A stretch of 64,000 nucleotides of DNA, taken from NCBI GenBank assembly GCA_024685135.1, contig JAIKWA010000050.1:20718-84717 (forward strand). The letters are read 5' to 3'. Position 1 is the stretch's first letter; each line of letters starts with the position of its first letter. Origin of the DNA: Saccharofermentans sp. GTDB lineage: Bacteria; Bacillota; Clostridia; Saccharofermentanales; Saccharofermentanaceae. The position numbers and the translations under genes were made by a program. This document shows positions 2,598 to 10,132 of the stretch, piece by piece. The notes beneath the pieces were generated by a model. The model was not told the DNA's origin and did no database searches. It was given only the letters and a program-made list of their open reading frames with translations.

Positions 2598-3788
2598 ATG
2601 ATTTCCAGATCTATCAAGCAACAGTTAGCCGGCGGTTCAGAGATCCGCAAGATGTTCGAAGAGGGCAAGAGACTTAAGGCTATCTACGGTGACGACAACG
2701 TATTCGACTTCTCCATAGGTAACCCTGACTTAGAGCCTCCCAAAGAAGTAACAGAGGCTTTGGCAGAACTTGCAAACAACCCTACTCCCGGCATGCACGG
2801 CTACATGAGCAACAACGGCTACGAATCAACAAGAGCTGCGATCGCTTCCAAGAAGTCTGCTGAATCCGGTTTAGAGATCTCAAGCGGGGCTCTCTGCATG
2901 ACGGTCGGTGCTGCAGCTGCAATGAACGATGTATTGCACTCCATCTTAGATCCCGAAGATGAAGTTATCGTACTTGCTCCTTTCTTCATGGAGTACACTG
3001 GCTATATCAAGAACCACGGCGGCGTTCCGGTTATTGTTCCTACAGACGATAAGTTCATGCCTGTAATAGACAGGATCTCAGATGCTATCACGTCAAAGAC
3101 CAAGGCCATCATCATCAACTCACCTAACAATCCTTCAGGTGTTGTTTATTCAGAGGAGATGCTTACGGCAATTAACGATATGCTCCTTAGCAAGGATCAT
3201 GTTATCCATGTGATCTCCGATGAGCCTTATATCGATCTTGCATACGACGGCATCGAGGTTCCCTGCGCACTTAAGTACATCAAGAACCTTATCGTTTGCT
3301 TCTCATGGAGTAAGTCCTTATCACTCCCCGGTGAGCGTATCGGTTATGCTCTCGTATCCCCTAACCACGAGGACTACGAAGATCTTACTGCTGCAATAGC
3401 AATCTCCAACCGTACACTCGGAAGCGTTAATGCTCCTGCTATCTGGCAGAAGGTTATCGAGAAGGCACTTAATGCTAAGGTCGATGTTGCAAACTACGAG
3501 CATAGAAGAAACCTTCTTTATTCCAACATCATTGATGCAGGCTTCGATGCAGTTAAGCCCAACGGCGCTCTGTATATCTTCATGAACACACCTGAGGGGC
3601 TTGACGATAACGAGTTTGCCAAGGTTTGCGCATCCAAGAATCTCCTTCTCGTTAAGGGTTCTTCCTTCGCTTATCCCGGATACTGCCGTCTCGCATTCTG
3701 CGTATCTGAATCTACTATCGTAAATTCAAGGAAGGCATTCTTTGCCATCGCAGAAGAACTCGGCATCAGGCATAGAGCAAGCCTCTAA
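2598..3788 (+). CDS. Class I/II PLP-dependent aminotransferase
   Basis: A 396-aa fold-type I aminotransferase, close to bacterial aspartate/aromatic aminotransferases. Visible landmarks are the SIGNPDLEPP substrate segment near the N-terminus, NSPNNPSGVVY (the Asn that touches PLP), SDEPYIDLAY (the Asp that binds the pyridine nitrogen) and SWSKSLSLPGERIGY with the Schiff-base lysine. The C-terminal YCRLAFCVS supplies the carboxylate-binding arginine. The substrate cannot be read from sequence; aspartate is the usual one. AGGTGA lies shortly before the ATG. The gene follows the GGDEF/EAL gene by 8 nt, so the two are probably cotranscribed. Its stop overlaps the convergent sortase stop by 4 nt. 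Confidence 0.88.
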   Translation: MISRSIKQQLAGGSEIRKMFEEGKRLKAIYGDDNVFDFSIGNPDLEPPKEVTEALAELANNPTPGMHGYMSNNGYESTRAAIASKKSAESGLEISSGALCMTVGAAAAMNDVLHSILDPEDEVIVLAPFFMEYTGYIKNHGGVPVIVPTDDKFMPVIDRISDAITSKTKAIIINSPNNPSGVVYSEEMLTAINDMLLSKDHVIHVISDEPYIDLAYDGIEVPCALKYIKNLIVCFSWSKSLSLPGERIGYALVSPNHEDYEDLTAAIAISNRTLGSVNAPAIWQKVIEKALNAKVDVANYEHRRNLLYSNIIDAGFDAVKPNGALYIFMNTPEGLDDNEFAKVCASKNLLLVKGSSFAYPGYCRLAFCVSESTIVNSRKAFFAIAEELGIRHRASL

Positions 3789-4426
3789 TCACACAGATCA
3801 CAAACAGCAACAAAACGGTAACCTGCGCCGAGTTCAGTGGCGCAGGTTACTATTGTTAATCGGGGCATTTTGCTGGCACTTGCTGCAATGAGCCCTTCTA
3901 TATCACAGGGTGCTGCATTAAGTGTATCTGTTACTTCAAAATCCAATACTTCTCCCGATACCCGGGTAAAATGGACTTGCGCACCCACCTCTATCTCCTG
4001 GAGCCTGCAAAATATCGTATTAAGATGTCTGTTCCTGTGACCTAATATAGTACTGTTGCCTTTGTCTCCCGGCATAACTGAATCAGGCCATATGCAGACT
4101 CCGTATCTTAAAGCCACTCTGTCACACTCTATATAGCAGGGCTCTAACACTTCTATCGAAGGTATCTCCAGTACTCCTGCCAGATGAAGTGTCTCATTTT
4201 CAAAAGAAGACATATCAAGGTCTTCTTCTCCATTGATCGCCAAAAGGTCAGTGGCAGGCACTTGGATCTCAGACGGGATATCCCCTTCCATATAATCCTC
4301 AACTACATTCTTGGTTATATGTTCTCTTATCAATGTCTTGCAAGGTTCCTTAACGATATATATAAGACCTCCCAAAGATAACATCAGACAGATCACAAGT
4401 CCTGCCACGCTGACCTTACTTCTCAC
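3785..4426 (-). CDS. Sortase (LPXTG transpeptidase) dedicated to the upstream adhesin
   Basis: A 213-aa membrane-anchored transpeptidase that cleaves LPXTG signals and links proteins to peptidoglycan or pilin lysines. One N-terminal TM helix (about 6-24) precedes an extracytoplasmic sortase fold. The catalytic triad is visible as His130 in TILGHRNRH, Cys195 in LTIVTCATE and Arg204 in GYRFVAV. The class is uncertain: it lacks the C-terminal TM helix and lid typical of many pilin-polymerising class C enzymes and looks nearest class D or B. Its ATG overlaps the adhesin stop by 4 nt (ATGA), so translation is coupled. The DNA for the catalytic Cys-to-Arg stretch forms a 12-bp perfect hairpin (separate entry). 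Confidence 0.88.
   Translation of the reverse strand: MRSKVSVAGLVICLMLSLGGLIYIVKEPCKTLIREHITKNVVEDYMEGDIPSEIQVPATDLLAINGEEDLDMSSFENETLHLAGVLEIPSIEVLEPCYIECDRVALRYGVCIWPDSVMPGDKGNSTILGHRNRHLNTIFCRLQEIEVGAQVHFTRVSGEVLDFEVTDTLNAAPCDIEGLIAASASKMPRLTIVTCATELGAGYRFVAVCDLCD
3818..3850 (-). terminator. Terminator-like hairpin inside the sortase coding end
   Basis: Perfect 12-bp inverted repeat GTAACCTGCGCC / GGCGCAGGTTAC with a 9-nt loop. On minus it is followed by CGTTTTGTTGCTGTTTG. It is GC-rich and followed by a T-rich stretch, about 30 nt before the sortase stop, so it may end the adhesin-sortase transcript. It could also limit read-through from the convergent aminotransferase. Termination is inferred; the repeat itself is certain. 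Confidence 0.55.
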
Positions 4427-7400
4427 TTACCTTGTGTCCTCCTTCCCTTTGAGATGAATACCGTGACACCTAATGCGCCGGCAAGCGCGATAACGGCTGC
4501 GAGCATGACATGCTCTGAGATCTCCTCGCCTGTACTCGGCAGGTTCTTAACCGTGATGCTCTGATCAGTGCAGTTAAGATCGTTATGTCTTGCAATCTCA
4601 ACATCTGATGTCTGCACACCGGTCTCGATCTCTTCTTCCGTTGCTCTGTCGTAGATATTCTCGAAAACAACAACTATATCTCCTTCAACCATTCCTCTTG
4701 TGGAAAGCTTGACGGGCACTTCTATAACGCCTTCTGACTCTTCAGGCGTGAATGTAACATCTGATGCGACGATCTCACCATTCTCCATGACGGGCGTACC
4801 GTCTCTCATATATAAAGTTGCGACTATCTCATATTCTCTGCCGGGTTCAAGACCATGGTATGTAACCCTGTCAGTTATGGTCACGATGGAATCTGACCTC
4901 ATTGTCTTCAAGTCATCCGAGCTTCTTGCCGTAGTAACCACATAAGATCTTGTAAGGGTCTGATCTTCGTCTTCTATATCCGTATGTTCGCATATCAGGA
5001 CACCTTCTACCGTGAGATATTCGAATATAACGACATCTTCAACATCAAGAGGGATACTGACATCTTCAAATAAGACTTCAACAGATCCGTCAGACGATGC
5101 AGGCGTGAATACAGCACAAGATGTTATCTCATTGCCTGAACCGTCCTTAAGACGCATTCCTGTTGCCTTATCCACGATATAACCTGTTACCGTGTATTCG
5201 ATACCGGGTTCAAGAGACGAGTAAGTAACTATATCCTTAAGATCGAATTCATCGACAAAGCCGAGCGCATGAGTGCCTGTTGCAGTATCAGATGCATCAG
5301 TTCCGATATCAGGCATAGTAAGCGTCTGATCCGTATCTTCGATATCACAATGCTCGAAGGCAGATTCTCCGTCAAATAAAGTCTCGAAGGCAACGATAGA
5401 TGAGCCCTGAAGATCGTTGGTATTTATAACGAACGGAACTTCAACGATCTGGCTTCTTGCAGAAGCTACAAAGGTAACCTCCGATACATAGGCCGAGCCT
5501 TCCATATCGGTAAGCGCTTCACCTGTATCCTTGCACATAAGGCTTCCCTTGAGAATGTATGTATCTCCTATATTAAGCCCGCTCAGGCTGCAGTAGTCTG
5601 TTACCTCTATCTCCTCGCCCCTGCTCAGCATATGCGAATCTGTTATTCCGAGACTTACATCCTTAAGCATTGTGCCTAAGATAGGTCTTACATTAACAAA
5701 GCAATCCGGCATCTGATATTCATCTGCAAAGAAGTTAGATACTATAGGTCTGCTGTTATCTGCAGTTACCGAGAATTCATAGACTGTTTCATCTGCGATA
5801 TATCCCATAGGTGCTTTTGTCTCAACAAGGTAATATGTACCTGCAGAGAGCTTCAGCAATTTATATATACCCTCTTCTTCGCTGTAAGTAAGTGTTCCTC
5901 TTAAGTTTGTTAGTTCCTTATCGTCAAATACTTCAAATTCTGCCCCCTTAAGACCATTCCCCTCTTGATCGGTCTTATTTACATAAACTCCGCCTGCGAT
6001 ATTGGAGATCGCAAGCTCGTATGTTGCAACTTCAAAGCCTTCGATGCATGTATCCTTGGATTCGATAACTACAGGTGCGAAGTTAGGTGTATCCGTACTG
6101 TTACCGTCGCTATCGGTATACAGATATCCGTCAGGAAGACTTGTCTCAACTACGACATAGCTTCCGGGCCTTAATCCTGACACTGTATAGATACCGTTAT
6201 CTTCGACGAAGTCAGCATTACCGTTCGTACTTACGCTATTAGCTTCAGGTTCATCTGATGTATGGATGCCGTCACCATTTGTATCTTCGTAAATGGTAAA
6301 GCCTGCTCCGCTTAAAAGCTCACCTGTATCTATATCCTTCTTTACTACGGATACACTTGCAGTATAAGGAACCTGTAATACATCAAGTGACATATCGTTG
6401 CTATTTCCTACAGTAAAAGGAACAGCCTCGCTTGCAACATAGTATCCAAAAGGAGACTGAGTCTCAATCAGAAGATAAGCTCCCGTAAAAAGTCCTTCAA
6501 TAACGAGCTTGCCGTCCCTATCTGTATCTTCTATCTGAGATCTTGTCTCCATCTCATCGTCGTCTAATATGCCGTTGGCATTAAGATCCTTATACAGATC
6601 GAAGGTGACACAGCTTCCTTCGTAACCGCTTATAGTCTCTCCTGTTACGGAGTCCTTCTTATTTATGGTGACATCTATACATATCCTGTTATTGCATGTT
6701 ACATACAAGGACTGGTTATCAGAGTTCTCTGTAAGGCGGATAACCTTATATTCGGTATCCTCGCCTTCCCAGTAGCACTTATAGCCTGAAGGCGTGATCT
6801 CCTTTACGCGGTACCAGCCAAGAGGAAGGTCTTCGAATCTTGCTATACCTTCAGCATCTGTAGTCTTAATGGCACATACGGTATTCTGCCATTCGGGGCT
6901 TAAACCATTGCCGCCATAGTAGAGATTAAACCTGATATCAGCGATACTTCCGTCCTCAGATACCTTGCCTACTACAAGATCTGCCTGACCTCTGTCGTTG
7001 CTTACATTCTGAGTTATCGTTGTAGCAGAAGGCAGACTTATGTTCTTATACCAGTAGCTTCCGTCTGAAGATCTCGTAAAGCCTTCGGGCGTATAGTATG
7101 TATATGCCGCAGTGCTTCCCTGCATGTATCTGTCGGTAGGAACGATCTCACGAAGCTGATATGTACCGGATGGGACATTAAGCGCAGCAAGGTTACCACC
7201 GCCTCCTGTAGTCCATATGACCTTACCGTCACTACCGGTCACGCCCTTGGCAAGCTTTATCGTTCCGCCTGTATTCCACAGCTCGAACATAAAGCCCTGA
7301 GAGTTATCCTCACTGTCCGCAACGGATTTGTTTACCACAAGAGATGAATTGTTATGGTCGTTGGTACAGGTAAAATCGTATACCTTATATCCTTCTGCGG

Positions 7401-9003
7401 TAAACGAATAAGAATATCTGGTCTGAGATCTTCTGGTCCAGCCCGTAGTCTTATTCTCCACACTGTAGTTTAATACATTGCCGTCCAGGCATTTAAACTG
7501 CGGTATTACAAAATCTTCGTATATCGTATATGTCACACCCTTTTGCAGGGGAAAATACTTACCTGATACCTTAAGACCTGATGCGGTATACCAGTTCCAT
7601 GCACCCGATACATACTTATAGACACCTACAAGGGTATTGCCGCTATACAGACTGAATACTGTCTGATTTACATTCAAACCCGTATTAGTAGTCTTGGTGA
7701 TGGATACCGAAGATGACTCAAGCATAAAGCCTGAGGTGTTACCGGCATTCTGATCGGTAGTCGCCTGATTAGTAACTCTAATGCTCTCACCGCTGAGTCT
7801 GTAATTACTTATGGTCGCATTGTACAGCTCAGTCCAGATACCGCTGCTGTCTATCTTCCTTATCTTGTAGTTCATTGTACCTGTTGTGGTATTTACGTTA
7901 TAAAGGTTCATGTCCACCTGATAGACGTTCTCGTCGAAGAAGCGGTATTCGGCTCTTATATCTTCTACCTGAGGCTCGCCGTCAGCTCCCCAGCCGCTGT
8001 ATCTTAGATCTACTCCATCAGATCCGTCCAAGAGCATAAACGGACAGAAAGTTTCCTTGAGATACAGGAACTTATAGTATCCTTCGTTATCTCTTGTATC
8101 GAAGTCCAGCAAAATCCTCTTAGACCCGTCGTCGCCCCAGTAGTTGACGCAGATACCGTCGAGGCTGTCGTCAGTTACTCTGCCTATGGCATTTGTACCG
8201 GCCCTTGCATCCTCCAAAGTCTCGTATACGCTGAATGTCGCACCCGCAAGTCTCATCCCGCTCGCAGTGCGCTTATCTATATACATGTTGGCATAAGCAT
8301 TGACCGGTGTGGTCCTGAAGCGCTGCATATAGGTAATTACCTTGCCGAGCTTGAGTTCGCCTATTATGTGAGCTACCCTCTTCTCGGATACTCCCGAATC
8401 GGGATCCGAATGCCACATATATGCGCCGTGACCGTCGCTTCCGTCCTTAACACCGGAATAGACACCGATATGAAGGTTCTTACCGTTCTGATCGTAGAAG
8501 AGCAAGACATCACCTGGCACGGAATTTGAAGATATCCAGTTATCTATATCGCTGTCAGACCAGCCTGTGGCATCGAAGGGCGCAGAACCTGCTATGGCCT
8601 TGCGCTCTACATTCGGATCACCTGTATTTATCTCACCTGCAAAGAGCTTCAGATATTCCTGTACCTGCATATTGCCGTCGCAGGCAATATAGCCGTTGAA
8701 ATTACAGCAGCCCGCATCGAGCAGGACTCTTGCAAGATAGTTGGTGCAGTCCATCTCCTCGTAGGACCTTCCGTTATATCTTGCAGCGCAGGAGAGGATC
8801 TTATTCCTCGTCTGCTCTGCTGACCATGGAAACCATTCGGATATGCTTCCGGTATTACCTGTAAAATCGTAGGCATCCATATATAAAGGCGGCGTATATT
8901 CAGGCGCCGCCAAGACAAGAGAACTGCCGTAAAAGCCCAGCACCACGGTAAGCAGTACCAGCATGGCTGTTATCTTGTAAATAGATCTGTTTCTAACTCC
9001 CAT
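4423..9003 (-). CDS. Giant LPXTG surface adhesin: NlpC/P60-like N-terminus, CnaB (SpaA-like) and VaFE repeats
   Basis: A 1526-aa cell-wall protein. A signal peptide spans about 1-33. Residues about 60-235 look like an NlpC/P60-type papain-fold amidase, with Cys86 in MDCTNYLARVLL and His178 in LHIGVYSG. Next come six or seven CnaB/SpaA-type modules beginning with VxxxK pilin motifs (VVNKSVAD, VVKKDIDTG, VYVNKTDQEG). Two of them carry EF-hand-like loops (DLNANGILDDDE, DTNGDGIHTSDE) as in SdrD B-type repeats. Three VaFE repeats follow, each with a V(A/I/V)FE motif and ending HCDIEDTDQTLT, HTDIEDEDQTLT or HNDLNCTDQSIT; such repeats form Thr-Gln ester crosslinks. LPSTG lies near 1488, followed by a TM helix and GRRTQGK. 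GGAGGAGATGAG precedes the ATG. The operon partners are the DUF5688 gene and the sortase. The role, attachment or pilus tip, is inferred. Confidence 0.88.
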   Translation of the reverse strand: MGVRNRSIYKITAMLVLLTVVLGFYGSSLVLAAPEYTPPLYMDAYDFTGNTGSISEWFPWSAEQTRNKILSCAARYNGRSYEEMDCTNYLARVLLDAGCCNFNGYIACDGNMQVQEYLKLFAGEINTGDPNVERKAIAGSAPFDATGWSDSDIDNWISSNSVPGDVLLFYDQNGKNLHIGVYSGVKDGSDGHGAYMWHSDPDSGVSEKRVAHIIGELKLGKVITYMQRFRTTPVNAYANMYIDKRTASGMRLAGATFSVYETLEDARAGTNAIGRVTDDSLDGICVNYWGDDGSKRILLDFDTRDNEGYYKFLYLKETFCPFMLLDGSDGVDLRYSGWGADGEPQVEDIRAEYRFFDENVYQVDMNLYNVNTTTGTMNYKIRKIDSSGIWTELYNATISNYRLSGESIRVTNQATTDQNAGNTSGFMLESSSVSITKTTNTGLNVNQTVFSLYSGNTLVGVYKYVSGAWNWYTASGLKVSGKYFPLQKGVTYTIYEDFVIPQFKCLDGNVLNYSVENKTTGWTRRSQTRYSYSFTAEGYKVYDFTCTNDHNNSSLVVNKSVADSEDNSQGFMFELWNTGGTIKLAKGVTGSDGKVIWTTGGGGNLAALNVPSGTYQLREIVPTDRYMQGSTAAYTYYTPEGFTRSSDGSYWYKNISLPSATTITQNVSNDRGQADLVVGKVSEDGSIADIRFNLYYGGNGLSPEWQNTVCAIKTTDAEGIARFEDLPLGWYRVKEITPSGYKCYWEGEDTEYKVIRLTENSDNQSLYVTCNNRICIDVTINKKDSVTGETISGYEGSCVTFDLYKDLNANGILDDDEMETRSQIEDTDRDGKLVIEGLFTGAYLLIETQSPFGYYVASEAVPFTVGNSNDMSLDVLQVPYTASVSVVKKDIDTGELLSGAGFTIYEDTNGDGIHTSDEPEANSVSTNGNADFVEDNGIYTVSGLRPGSYVVVETSLPDGYLYTDSDGNSTDTPNFAPVVIESKDTCIEGFEVATYELAISNIAGGVYVNKTDQEGNGLKGAEFEVFDDKELTNLRGTLTYSEEEGIYKLLKLSAGTYYLVETKAPMGYIADETVYEFSVTADNSRPIVSNFFADEYQMPDCFVNVRPILGTMLKDVSLGITDSHMLSRGEEIEVTDYCSLSGLNIGDTYILKGSLMCKDTGEALTDMEGSAYVSEVTFVASARSQIVEVPFVINTNDLQGSSIVAFETLFDGESAFEHCDIEDTDQTLTMPDIGTDASDTATGTHALGFVDEFDLKDIVTYSSLEPGIEYTVTGYIVDKATGMRLKDGSGNEITSCAVFTPASSDGSVEVLFEDVSIPLDVEDVVIFEYLTVEGVLICEHTDIEDEDQTLTRSYVVTTARSSDDLKTMRSDSIVTITDRVTYHGLEPGREYEIVATLYMRDGTPVMENGEIVASDVTFTPEESEGVIEVPVKLSTRGMVEGDIVVVFENIYDRATEEEIETGVQTSDVEIARHNDLNCTDQSITVKNLPSTGEEISEHVMLAAVIALAGALGVTVFISKGRRTQGK

Positions 9004-9018
9004 CTCATCTCCTCCGTC

Positions 9019-9978
9019 TTAAGCCACTACATCGCAGCTGGCCACTCTCCTGATCTGATTATCTGCCCTCGAATACAGATAAACGCTGTCAGACAATTTG
9101 TCCTGCGAAGACACCTGAGTCATGTTGGTATCCTTAACGAGCTTGAGCAGTTTGGATCTGCCCTTATAGAACTCTGCAGAGAGGATGATGAGGTCGTGTA
9201 TAGAAGACGGCAGGACATAGCAATCCGTACCGATGATGTCAGCCGCCCTCTTGATAACATCGGGATACAAGAGTGCGTCCGCACCGAAATACCCGATGCT
9301 GTTAGTGACCACATATACTCTCTCGTTATTGGGGATATTGTTAAAACCCGGGAACTCCTCGGTCATGTCCACCTTGCTTCCCCTTCTGTCGTTTACGAGC
9401 CTTAAAAGAGTCTGCTCGATCCTCTCGACCATAAAGGGCAGCATATGAGGGGTATTCTTCCTGGCATGCTCGTACAGATCCTCTTCAGACCAGCCTGCGC
9501 TCTGGCAGACCTCATTGGTCACAATAAAGCCGCTCAGGCCCCTCTGATCCACATGAGTGATAGCGCGGTATATGACCGTAAGATCTTCGAATTCTCTGTG
9601 CGGACACTTCTCGATAAGAGAAGCATTCATGTTCTTAGAGATCAGCTGGAAGATTATCTTGTTCTTAAAGCTTGACAGATCGCTCAGATCCGGGATCTTA
9701 GGTGCGACCTTGACTGAATCCTCCAGATATTTTGCCTGGTTTACCATCGTCCTCTCAAAATTGCCCTCTTCGAGATACTGTTCGTACATACGCTCAAGAT
9801 AAAAAGTAGGGGCCACATATGACCCCTTCTTATCCTTCGGCGTGATGGTGATGCCCGTCAGTTCTTCATTTACCTTGCTTACCTTGTGTTCAACGAGTTT
9901 GCAATTGAAATACCGCTCCGGCATGTAATCCATAAACTCATCGAGAACTCTCTTCCTAAACTCTTCAAAATCCATCAT
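9019..9978 (-). CDS. DUF5688 family protein
   Basis: I recognise this as the DUF5688 family, common in gut and rumen Clostridia and of unknown function. The track ORF (to 10077) is too long: AAGGAGGT sits 7 nt before the ATG at 9978, giving a 319-aa product starting MMDFEEFRKRVLDEFMDYMPE. It is a soluble alpha/beta protein with no signal peptide. Visible blocks are GITITPKDKKGSYVAPTFYL near the N-terminus, a helical middle and NSIGYFGADALLYPDVIKRAA near the C-terminus. It is the first gene of the adhesin operon, 15 nt before the adhesin ATG. It sits just after a promoter and a leader terminator, so it may be made together with, or act on, the surface structure. That link is only by position. 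Confidence 0.75.
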   Translation of the reverse strand: MMDFEEFRKRVLDEFMDYMPERYFNCKLVEHKVSKVNEELTGITITPKDKKGSYVAPTFYLERMYEQYLEEGNFERTMVNQAKYLEDSVKVAPKIPDLSDLSSFKNKIIFQLISKNMNASLIEKCPHREFEDLTVIYRAITHVDQRGLSGFIVTNEVCQSAGWSEEDLYEHARKNTPHMLPFMVERIEQTLLRLVNDRRGSKVDMTEEFPGFNNIPNNERVYVVTNSIGYFGADALLYPDVIKRAADIIGTDCYVLPSSIHDLIILSAEFYKGRSKLLKLVKDTNMTQVSSQDKLSDSVYLYSRADNQIRRVASCDVVA

Positions 9979-10006
9979 CAAGATGACCTCCTTAAATATT
10001 CCCAAT

Positions 10007-10033
10007 AAAAAACGCACCGGCATGCGGTGCGTT
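10007..10033 (-). terminator. Intrinsic terminator in the leader of the DUF5688-adhesin operon
   Basis: Stem AACGCACCG / CGGTGCGTT (9 bp, loop of 5) followed on minus by a T tract (complement of AAAAAA at 10007-10012). It lies about 12 nt downstream of the predicted transcription start for the promoter at 10053-10081 and 28 nt before the DUF5688 start. It is thus either an attenuator for the adhesin operon or the end of the upstream operon. Confidence 0.8.
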
Positions 10034-10052
10034 ATCTGATTGGGTAGCCTAT

Positions 10053-10081
10053 ATAATAGAAAGCCTTCGAGTCTCATTCAA
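10053..10081 (-). promoter_or_regulatory. Sigma-A-type promoter for the DUF5688-adhesin-sortase operon
   Basis: On minus: TTGAAT (10081-10076), 17-nt spacer, TATTAT (10058-10053). Transcription would start near 10046, just before the hairpin at 10033-10011. Both hexamers differ from consensus at one or two positions. Confidence 0.65.
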
Positions 10082-10132
10082 TATGTTAAAGTCTCATTTT
10101 AAGGGGGTGTTTTTGAAGATCTCAGTATTCAG

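Follow-up and report, generated by a model that had tools for sequence, protein, structure and literature searches.

A sortase-anchored stalk protein with an NlpC/P60-like tip in Saccharofermentans: a probable fibrillar enzyme at a fixed locus with replaceable tips

The tips of stalked surface proteins are usually classed as adhesins. TIE adhesins bind covalently via a Cys-Gln thioester (PMC4450167). In the fibrillar enzymes an enzyme-like N-terminal domain replaces the adhesive one on a long stalked surface protein, and the text describing this class does not mention NlpC (Monzon and Bateman, 2022; PMC9210967). A table of the domains that partner NlpC/P60 lists LysM, SH3, ChW and similar domains with LPXTG not among them (PMC6403190), and a search of the literature on sortase-anchored NlpC/P60 proteins found nothing. 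The subject of this report is a 1526-amino acid stalk protein of this kind encoded at 4423-9003 on the minus strand of a 64,000-nucleotide stretch of DNA from the rumen bacterium Saccharofermentans sp. (assembly GCA_024685135.1, contig JAIKWA010000050.1), the whole of which is referred to as the window and in which all features given below lie on the minus strand. It is read here, at a probability of about 0.62, as a wall-anchored fibrillar enzyme with an NlpC/P60 tip, encoded at a fixed locus at which the tips are replaceable.

The protein is the product of the second of three genes in the order DUF5688, stalk protein and sortase. The first gene of the unit (9019-9978, ATG at 9978) encodes a 319-amino acid DUF5688 protein with no apparent signal peptide and is followed after a gap of 15 nucleotides, with a good ribosome-binding site, by the stalk gene, while the sortase gene (3785-4426; 213 amino acids, TIVTC motif) begins with a GTG that shares four nucleotides with the TGA of the stalk gene (GTGA). 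All three genes of the trio proposed in the first-pass annotation are present in that order on one strand, with the sortase lying beyond the span of 4423-9978 then given to the unit. Within the stalk protein a CnaB/SpaA-type region (5689-8298, residues about 236-1105), matched by PF17802 in five stretches with 182 bits and by PF17210, is followed by three T-Q ester (VaFE) domains (4549-5682, residues about 1108-1485), matched by Pfam PF18202 in three stretches with 207 bits and recognised as three VaFE repeats by NCBIfam (NF033903), with a DQT/S motif closing each T-Q domain. An LPSTG sorting motif (4528-4542, residues 1488-1492) then precedes a membrane segment and a basic tail, and the LPXTG anchor model PF00746 scores 20.7 bits. 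These matches bear out the self-crosslinking CnaB and VaFE stalk with an LPXTG-type anchor that had been predicted, and the combination of isopeptide and ester stalk with an LPXTG anchor that characterises the TIE proteins is, by sequence, found here (PF17802, PF18202 and PF00746).

The head (8299-8907, residues about 33-235) was assigned from its predicted structure, Foldseek matches, invariant residues and a weak match to Pfam NLPC_P60. In the AlphaFold2 model (predicted local distance difference test, pLDDT, 73.5; predicted template modelling score, pTM, 0.78) the elements follow the papain-like order, with the catalytic cysteine on a helix and the histidine on the following sheet, and Foldseek placed the NlpC/P60 enzyme 6sqx first (E-value 2.2e-4), with CwlO (8wt3) and MepS (8xup) matched at probabilities of 1.00 and 0.98, respectively. 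Sequence searches of the PDB with the head profile gave nothing meaningful. A sister head type at the orthologous locus passes the PF00877 cut-off with 27.7 bits, and profile comparison between this head and that of the window gave a probability of 70% and an E-value of 4e-5, with the Cys and the His of the one aligned to those of the other. The numbers first given to the residues Cys86 (8746-8748), His178 (8470-8472) and His198 (8410-8412) were right and all three are invariant in an alignment of seven relatives, the window copy included. His198 itself is a candidate for the third catalytic residue, which the first-pass annotation had suggested looking for near it. Tips of types A-D (see below) and secreted paralogues gave 56 NlpC-like domains from the genus, and when these are aligned exactly three columns, Tyr, Cys and His, are invariant; Cys and His served to locate these domains so that their invariance is partly by construction, and the full motifs were recovered independently inside each head type. 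The third polar position is H/Q in type B and D in type C, corresponding to His198 in the window head. An enzyme family is expected to show just such invariance, which is the best support for activity rather than proof of it. With Cys86, His178 and His198 invariant among the seven relatives and Tyr, Cys and His across the 56 domains, it is probable that the head works as a cysteine hydrolase or acyltransferase. The earlier proposal of a papain-like NlpC/P60 head is in keeping with the model, the Foldseek matches, the profile comparison and the 56-domain alignment, and the papain-like fold, the absence of which had been named as the outcome that would tell against the proposal, is seen in the model.

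Reading about 80 neighbourhoods yielded 69 loci with DUF5688 behind rpe/rsgA, in which the order in the genus is pknB-rsgA-rpe-(thiN)-DUF5688. DUF5688 is found in 80 of the 85 genomes of the genus and a stalk protein lies no more than three genes past it in 68 of the 69 loci, the exception being L086, where the contig ends soon after. Among the genomes of the genus that were searched, only seven have the NlpC tip of the window (type A; 7/69 loci), with the type-A head and stalk directly after DUF5688 in all seven and a sortase in four, arguing that the trio is not a chance arrangement. Canonical NlpC/P60 (type B) forms the tip at 19 loci and the type D NlpC at three, while a subtilase is found at eight loci together with a third NlpC type (type C; PF00082 58 bits in L071) and at 11 loci without it. 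Thioester-domain tips were recognised at eight loci by a local profile, with the three tested (L089, L091 and L098) all passing PF08341. Five loci carry a tip in which no domain was identified (type F) and seven carry other tips. All seven aligned subtilase copies keep the residues D (in DTG), H (GHGT), N (SAGN) and S (STSEA). The locus is a fixed platform for different reactive tips, with the flanking genes and the stalk kept and the tip varying by clade. In type C (L071, L074, L075, L076 and L094) a subtilase and an NlpC-like domain stand in tandem at the tip, a linked sortase is lacking, and the membrane segment is followed by a conserved tail, rich in arginine, of about 45 amino acids. A frameshift was considered as the source of this odd basic C-terminus and rejected, the IPKTG anchor being in frame and the tail simply longer.

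Mapped on a tree of rpe, rsgA and pknB, the tip types need 11 changes, against a least possible number of eight and a mean of 43 with shuffled labels, from which it follows that tips are inherited inside clades with replacements old and few; a rapid exchange of tips as cassettes was rejected on the same figures. The clearest replacement is that of the subtilase group, which is nested within the type-B clade. Most members of this group have stalk C-termini that are nearest, after one another, to those of type B (43-45% identity), which fits a kept stalk and a changed tip. In a tree of NlpC domains, for which the program warned of long branches meeting, each of the tip types A and B has as its sister the NlpC domain of a secreted protein encoded in the window's own genome, which for type A is the ChW-repeat protein L024 (100/100) and for type B the ChW-like protein L226 (100/98). 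Because the sister domains of tips A and B sit on these two proteins, the type-A and type-B domain families are by sequence each displayed in two formats, as a stalk tip and on a ChW-type secreted protein.

The sortase of the window exceeds the cut-offs of both PF04203 (65.2 bits) and TIGR01076 (55.2 bits), its TIVTC fits the TLxTC motif, and none of the class-specific sortase models (B-F) reached cut-off. It is one of two sortases in the genome, the other being encoded elsewhere. The coupling of the adhesin, as it was then termed, to its own sortase holds at the window locus. Across the genus a linked sortase is present at 4/7 type-A, 15/19 type-B and 3/3 type-D loci and at 0/8 type-C loci. 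The type-B sorting motif is P[IVM]SG at all 15 loci having the linked sortase, and IPSTG, IPKTG or IPVLG at the four at which no sortase was found, one of them on a contig that ends at the adhesin (type-B examples include L072, L083, L177 and L184). Because the type-B motif tracks the presence of the sortase, the data suggest that the linked sortase is a dedicated enzyme that prefers a motif of its own and was lost along with that motif. The ending P[AS]LGD is seen in several proteins with a subtilase tip.

Building on the computed anatomy, fold class, conservation of catalytic residues, fixed locus and tip replacement, the fibrillar enzyme would operate as follows. The sortase, in its putative role, would join the exported protein to peptidoglycan at LPSTG, and the CnaB isopeptide and T-Q ester bonds would make the stalk a rigid rod with the NlpC/P60-type papain-fold domain at its far tip. 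There Cys86, polarised by His178 and His198, would attack an amide or peptide bond in an extracellular target to form an acyl-enzyme, to be followed by hydrolysis or by transfer to another nucleophile. The external target would most likely be peptide bonds in the peptidoglycan of neighbours or in other surface peptides, with neighbours' peptidoglycan the likeliest substrate class given that wall endopeptidases are the closest matches to the head among solved structures. At this site, between DUF5688 and sortase and downstream of the pknB-rsgA-rpe operon, the tip has been replaced a few times in evolution by other domains with reactive nucleophiles, namely other NlpC/P60 types, a subtilase with or without NlpC, or a thioester domain. 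Several observations weigh against this reading. The head scores 16.1 bits (E-value 0.012) against PF00877, below the curated cut-off of 23, such that by score the window protein is not a member of that family, and its model was built from seven sequences. The WGG loop of the canonical wall enzymes is absent from the type-A head in the alignment of 56, the linked sortase is absent from 3/7 type-A carriers so that coupling is not strict, and those type-A carriers that appear under named records were assembled from metagenomes.

Acyltransferases are found within the papain superfamily, and the acyl-enzyme of a Cys head might by analogy join a target amide to itself or to another amine, gluing as thioester domains do. 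This analogy with thioester adhesins, raised in the first-pass annotation, gains weight because real PF08341 domains occupy the same locus on the same type of stalk in related species, in line with the covalent binding of the TIE adhesins noted at the outset. The subtilase tips at the same locus, however, fit plain proteolysis better and no residue signature pointing to a transferase was found, and a covalent adhesin is considered very unlikely. A site that alternates thioester, cysteine peptidase-like and serine protease-like tips could likewise have repurposed its NlpC tips as a second solution to covalent adhesion, which is held to be highly doubtful.

Rather better placed, if still unlikely, is a contact weapon or prey opener, in which the head would cut the peptidoglycan of adjacent members of the rumen community while the stalk held it off the wall of the producer. 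The top structural matches CwlO and MepS are peptidoglycan endopeptidases, and sister domains are found on secreted proteins with ChW repeats, which are suspected wall binders (PMC8051824), but neither an immunity gene, a toxin-delivery gene nor hypervariability was seen at the locus, and the tips are stably inherited in clades, unlike typical arms-race toxins. As cell-wall hydrolysis is the classic activity of NlpC/P60 enzymes (PMC6403190), the protein might instead remodel its own wall, merely anchored near its substrate, yet about ten stalk domains, judged from the domain count, would put the head far past the wall and the type-A tip, in a minority of loci, is hence not an essential autolysin, making such a role very improbable. 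That the head is a catalytically dead, NlpC-like binding domain would suit its score below the Pfam cut-off and the observation that enzyme-like tips can bind (Monzon and Bateman, PMC9210967), but is judged improbable since all 56 divergent domains keep Cys and His while sharing almost no other invariant position. The fibrillar enzyme with an NlpC/P60 tip is the reading favoured overall.

The DUF5688 protein of the window is a clear member of its family (PF18941, 245.5 bits against a cut-off of 34.5). Its position as first gene had been put forward as a possible clue to the function of the family. As a general clue to sortase systems DUF5688 finds no support, for of 40 DUF5688 neighbourhoods sampled elsewhere in the class none had a relative of the stalk protein or the sortase (BLAST with the window's proteins as queries). 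A near absence of DUF5688 from sortase loci, named beforehand as the result that would tell against the proposed unit, was therefore found outside the genus (0/40) but not inside it (68/69), and DUF5688 is tied to the locus in one genus without being a general sortase partner. Its predicted structure (pTM 0.54) is too weak to interpret, a fold search with it gave no significant match to a solved structure, a PDB sequence search with the DUF5688 profile gave nothing meaningful, and a literature search on the family found nothing. At this locus DUF5688 probably has an accessory role in the cytoplasm, and its absence from sortase loci elsewhere guards against its mis-annotation as a general sortase-system family. 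In other Clostridia the gene after DUF5688 frequently encodes a membrane protein bearing SH3-like repeats, and in nine of the 40 neighbourhoods the preceding gene, identified by reading its sequence, is taken to encode elongation factor P (L134, L136, L147, L148, L154-L156, L161 and L164), while some of the remaining DUF5688 genes adjoin conjugation or replication genes.

A conserved leader of DUF5688 spans 9980-10107 in the window and has equivalents across the genus. It includes a promoter-like region (10053-10107) that has TGAGACT directly repeated at a period of 20 bp, a -35-like TTGAAT and a -10-like TATTAT, and an intrinsic terminator-like hairpin with a T-run (10006-10033) between the promoter-like site and the DUF5688 ribosome-binding site. 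A strict scan found a hairpin just ahead of the DUF5688 start in 62/68 loci, its sequence differing between clades with the pairing kept, and the promoter-like site and TGAGACT repeat lie upstream of it in at least 33 loci. With only about 14-30 nucleotides between the T-run and the ribosome-binding site, transcripts covering DUF5688 must cross the hairpin, which may be a point of regulated read-through. A scan of the region with Rfam gave a single sub-threshold match (ncr1241) on the terminator hairpin, rejected as chance. At L223 (G006:C8:19057-19083) the leader, with repeat, -10-like site, hairpin and ribosome-binding site, precedes an unrelated 284-amino acid gene, as if copied.

The genes upstream of the unit are, from reading their sequences, taken to be thiN-, rpe-, rsgA- and pknB-like and the convergent gene downstream to be aminotransferase-like. 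In the interval between DUF5688 and the stalk gene L180 and L186 have a gene that reads as a PD-(D/E)XK transposase- or Rpn-type nuclease-like gene, in the clade of the type-B NlpC to subtilase replacement, with similarly placed genes (sequences unread) at L187 and L095, and another clade (L086, L087, L196 and L197) has an acidic secreted protein of about 200 amino acids. The assembly of the window's genome is small (1.94 Mb), and its relatives in the named collection, which were assembled from metagenomes, carry the labels Mageeibacillus, Ruminococcaceae, Clostridiales or Clostridia, with a rumen origin given in the title of at least one. Scans of viral contigs with the adhesin and DUF5688 as queries found no relatives.

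Among described systems, NlpC/P60 peptidases (PF00877; CwlO and MepS) share with the window head its fold, the Cys-His dyad and a third polar residue, and differ from it in that the head lies below their cut-off, lacks their WGG loop and is borne on a sortase-anchored stalk. Sortase-anchored subtilases exist, for example lactocepin and C5a peptidase, and the subtilase-tipped relatives resemble them as LPXTG-anchored S8 proteases, but here the stalks are others, with ester bonds, and S8 domains are fused to NlpC or thioester-like domains. The TIE proteins (PMC4450167, PMC6194298) have the same plan of N-terminal head, CnaB isopeptide and T-Q ester stalk and LPXTG anchor, and relatives at the orthologous locus carry their PF08341 thioester heads; the window head, however, is an NlpC/P60-like Cys-His domain and PF08341 has no match to the protein at E-values up to 10, such that by sequence it is not a TIE protein because the thioester domain is absent. 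The locus amounts to a natural series of tip exchanges with the stalk, the flanks and DUF5688 kept, making related jobs of stalked peptidases and thioester adhesins testable in a rumen community. From sequence and model together, the most economical reading of the protein is a fibrillar enzyme on a TIE-type stalk (PMC9210967, PMC6194298). In common with the fibrillar enzymes (PMC9210967) it is a surface protein on a long stalk with an N-terminal domain, here recognised from sequence and model, that is enzyme-like instead of adhesive, and it differs from them in that enzyme-like and covalent-adhesion tips interchange at one orthologous site, the NlpC tip alternating with thioester and subtilase tips.

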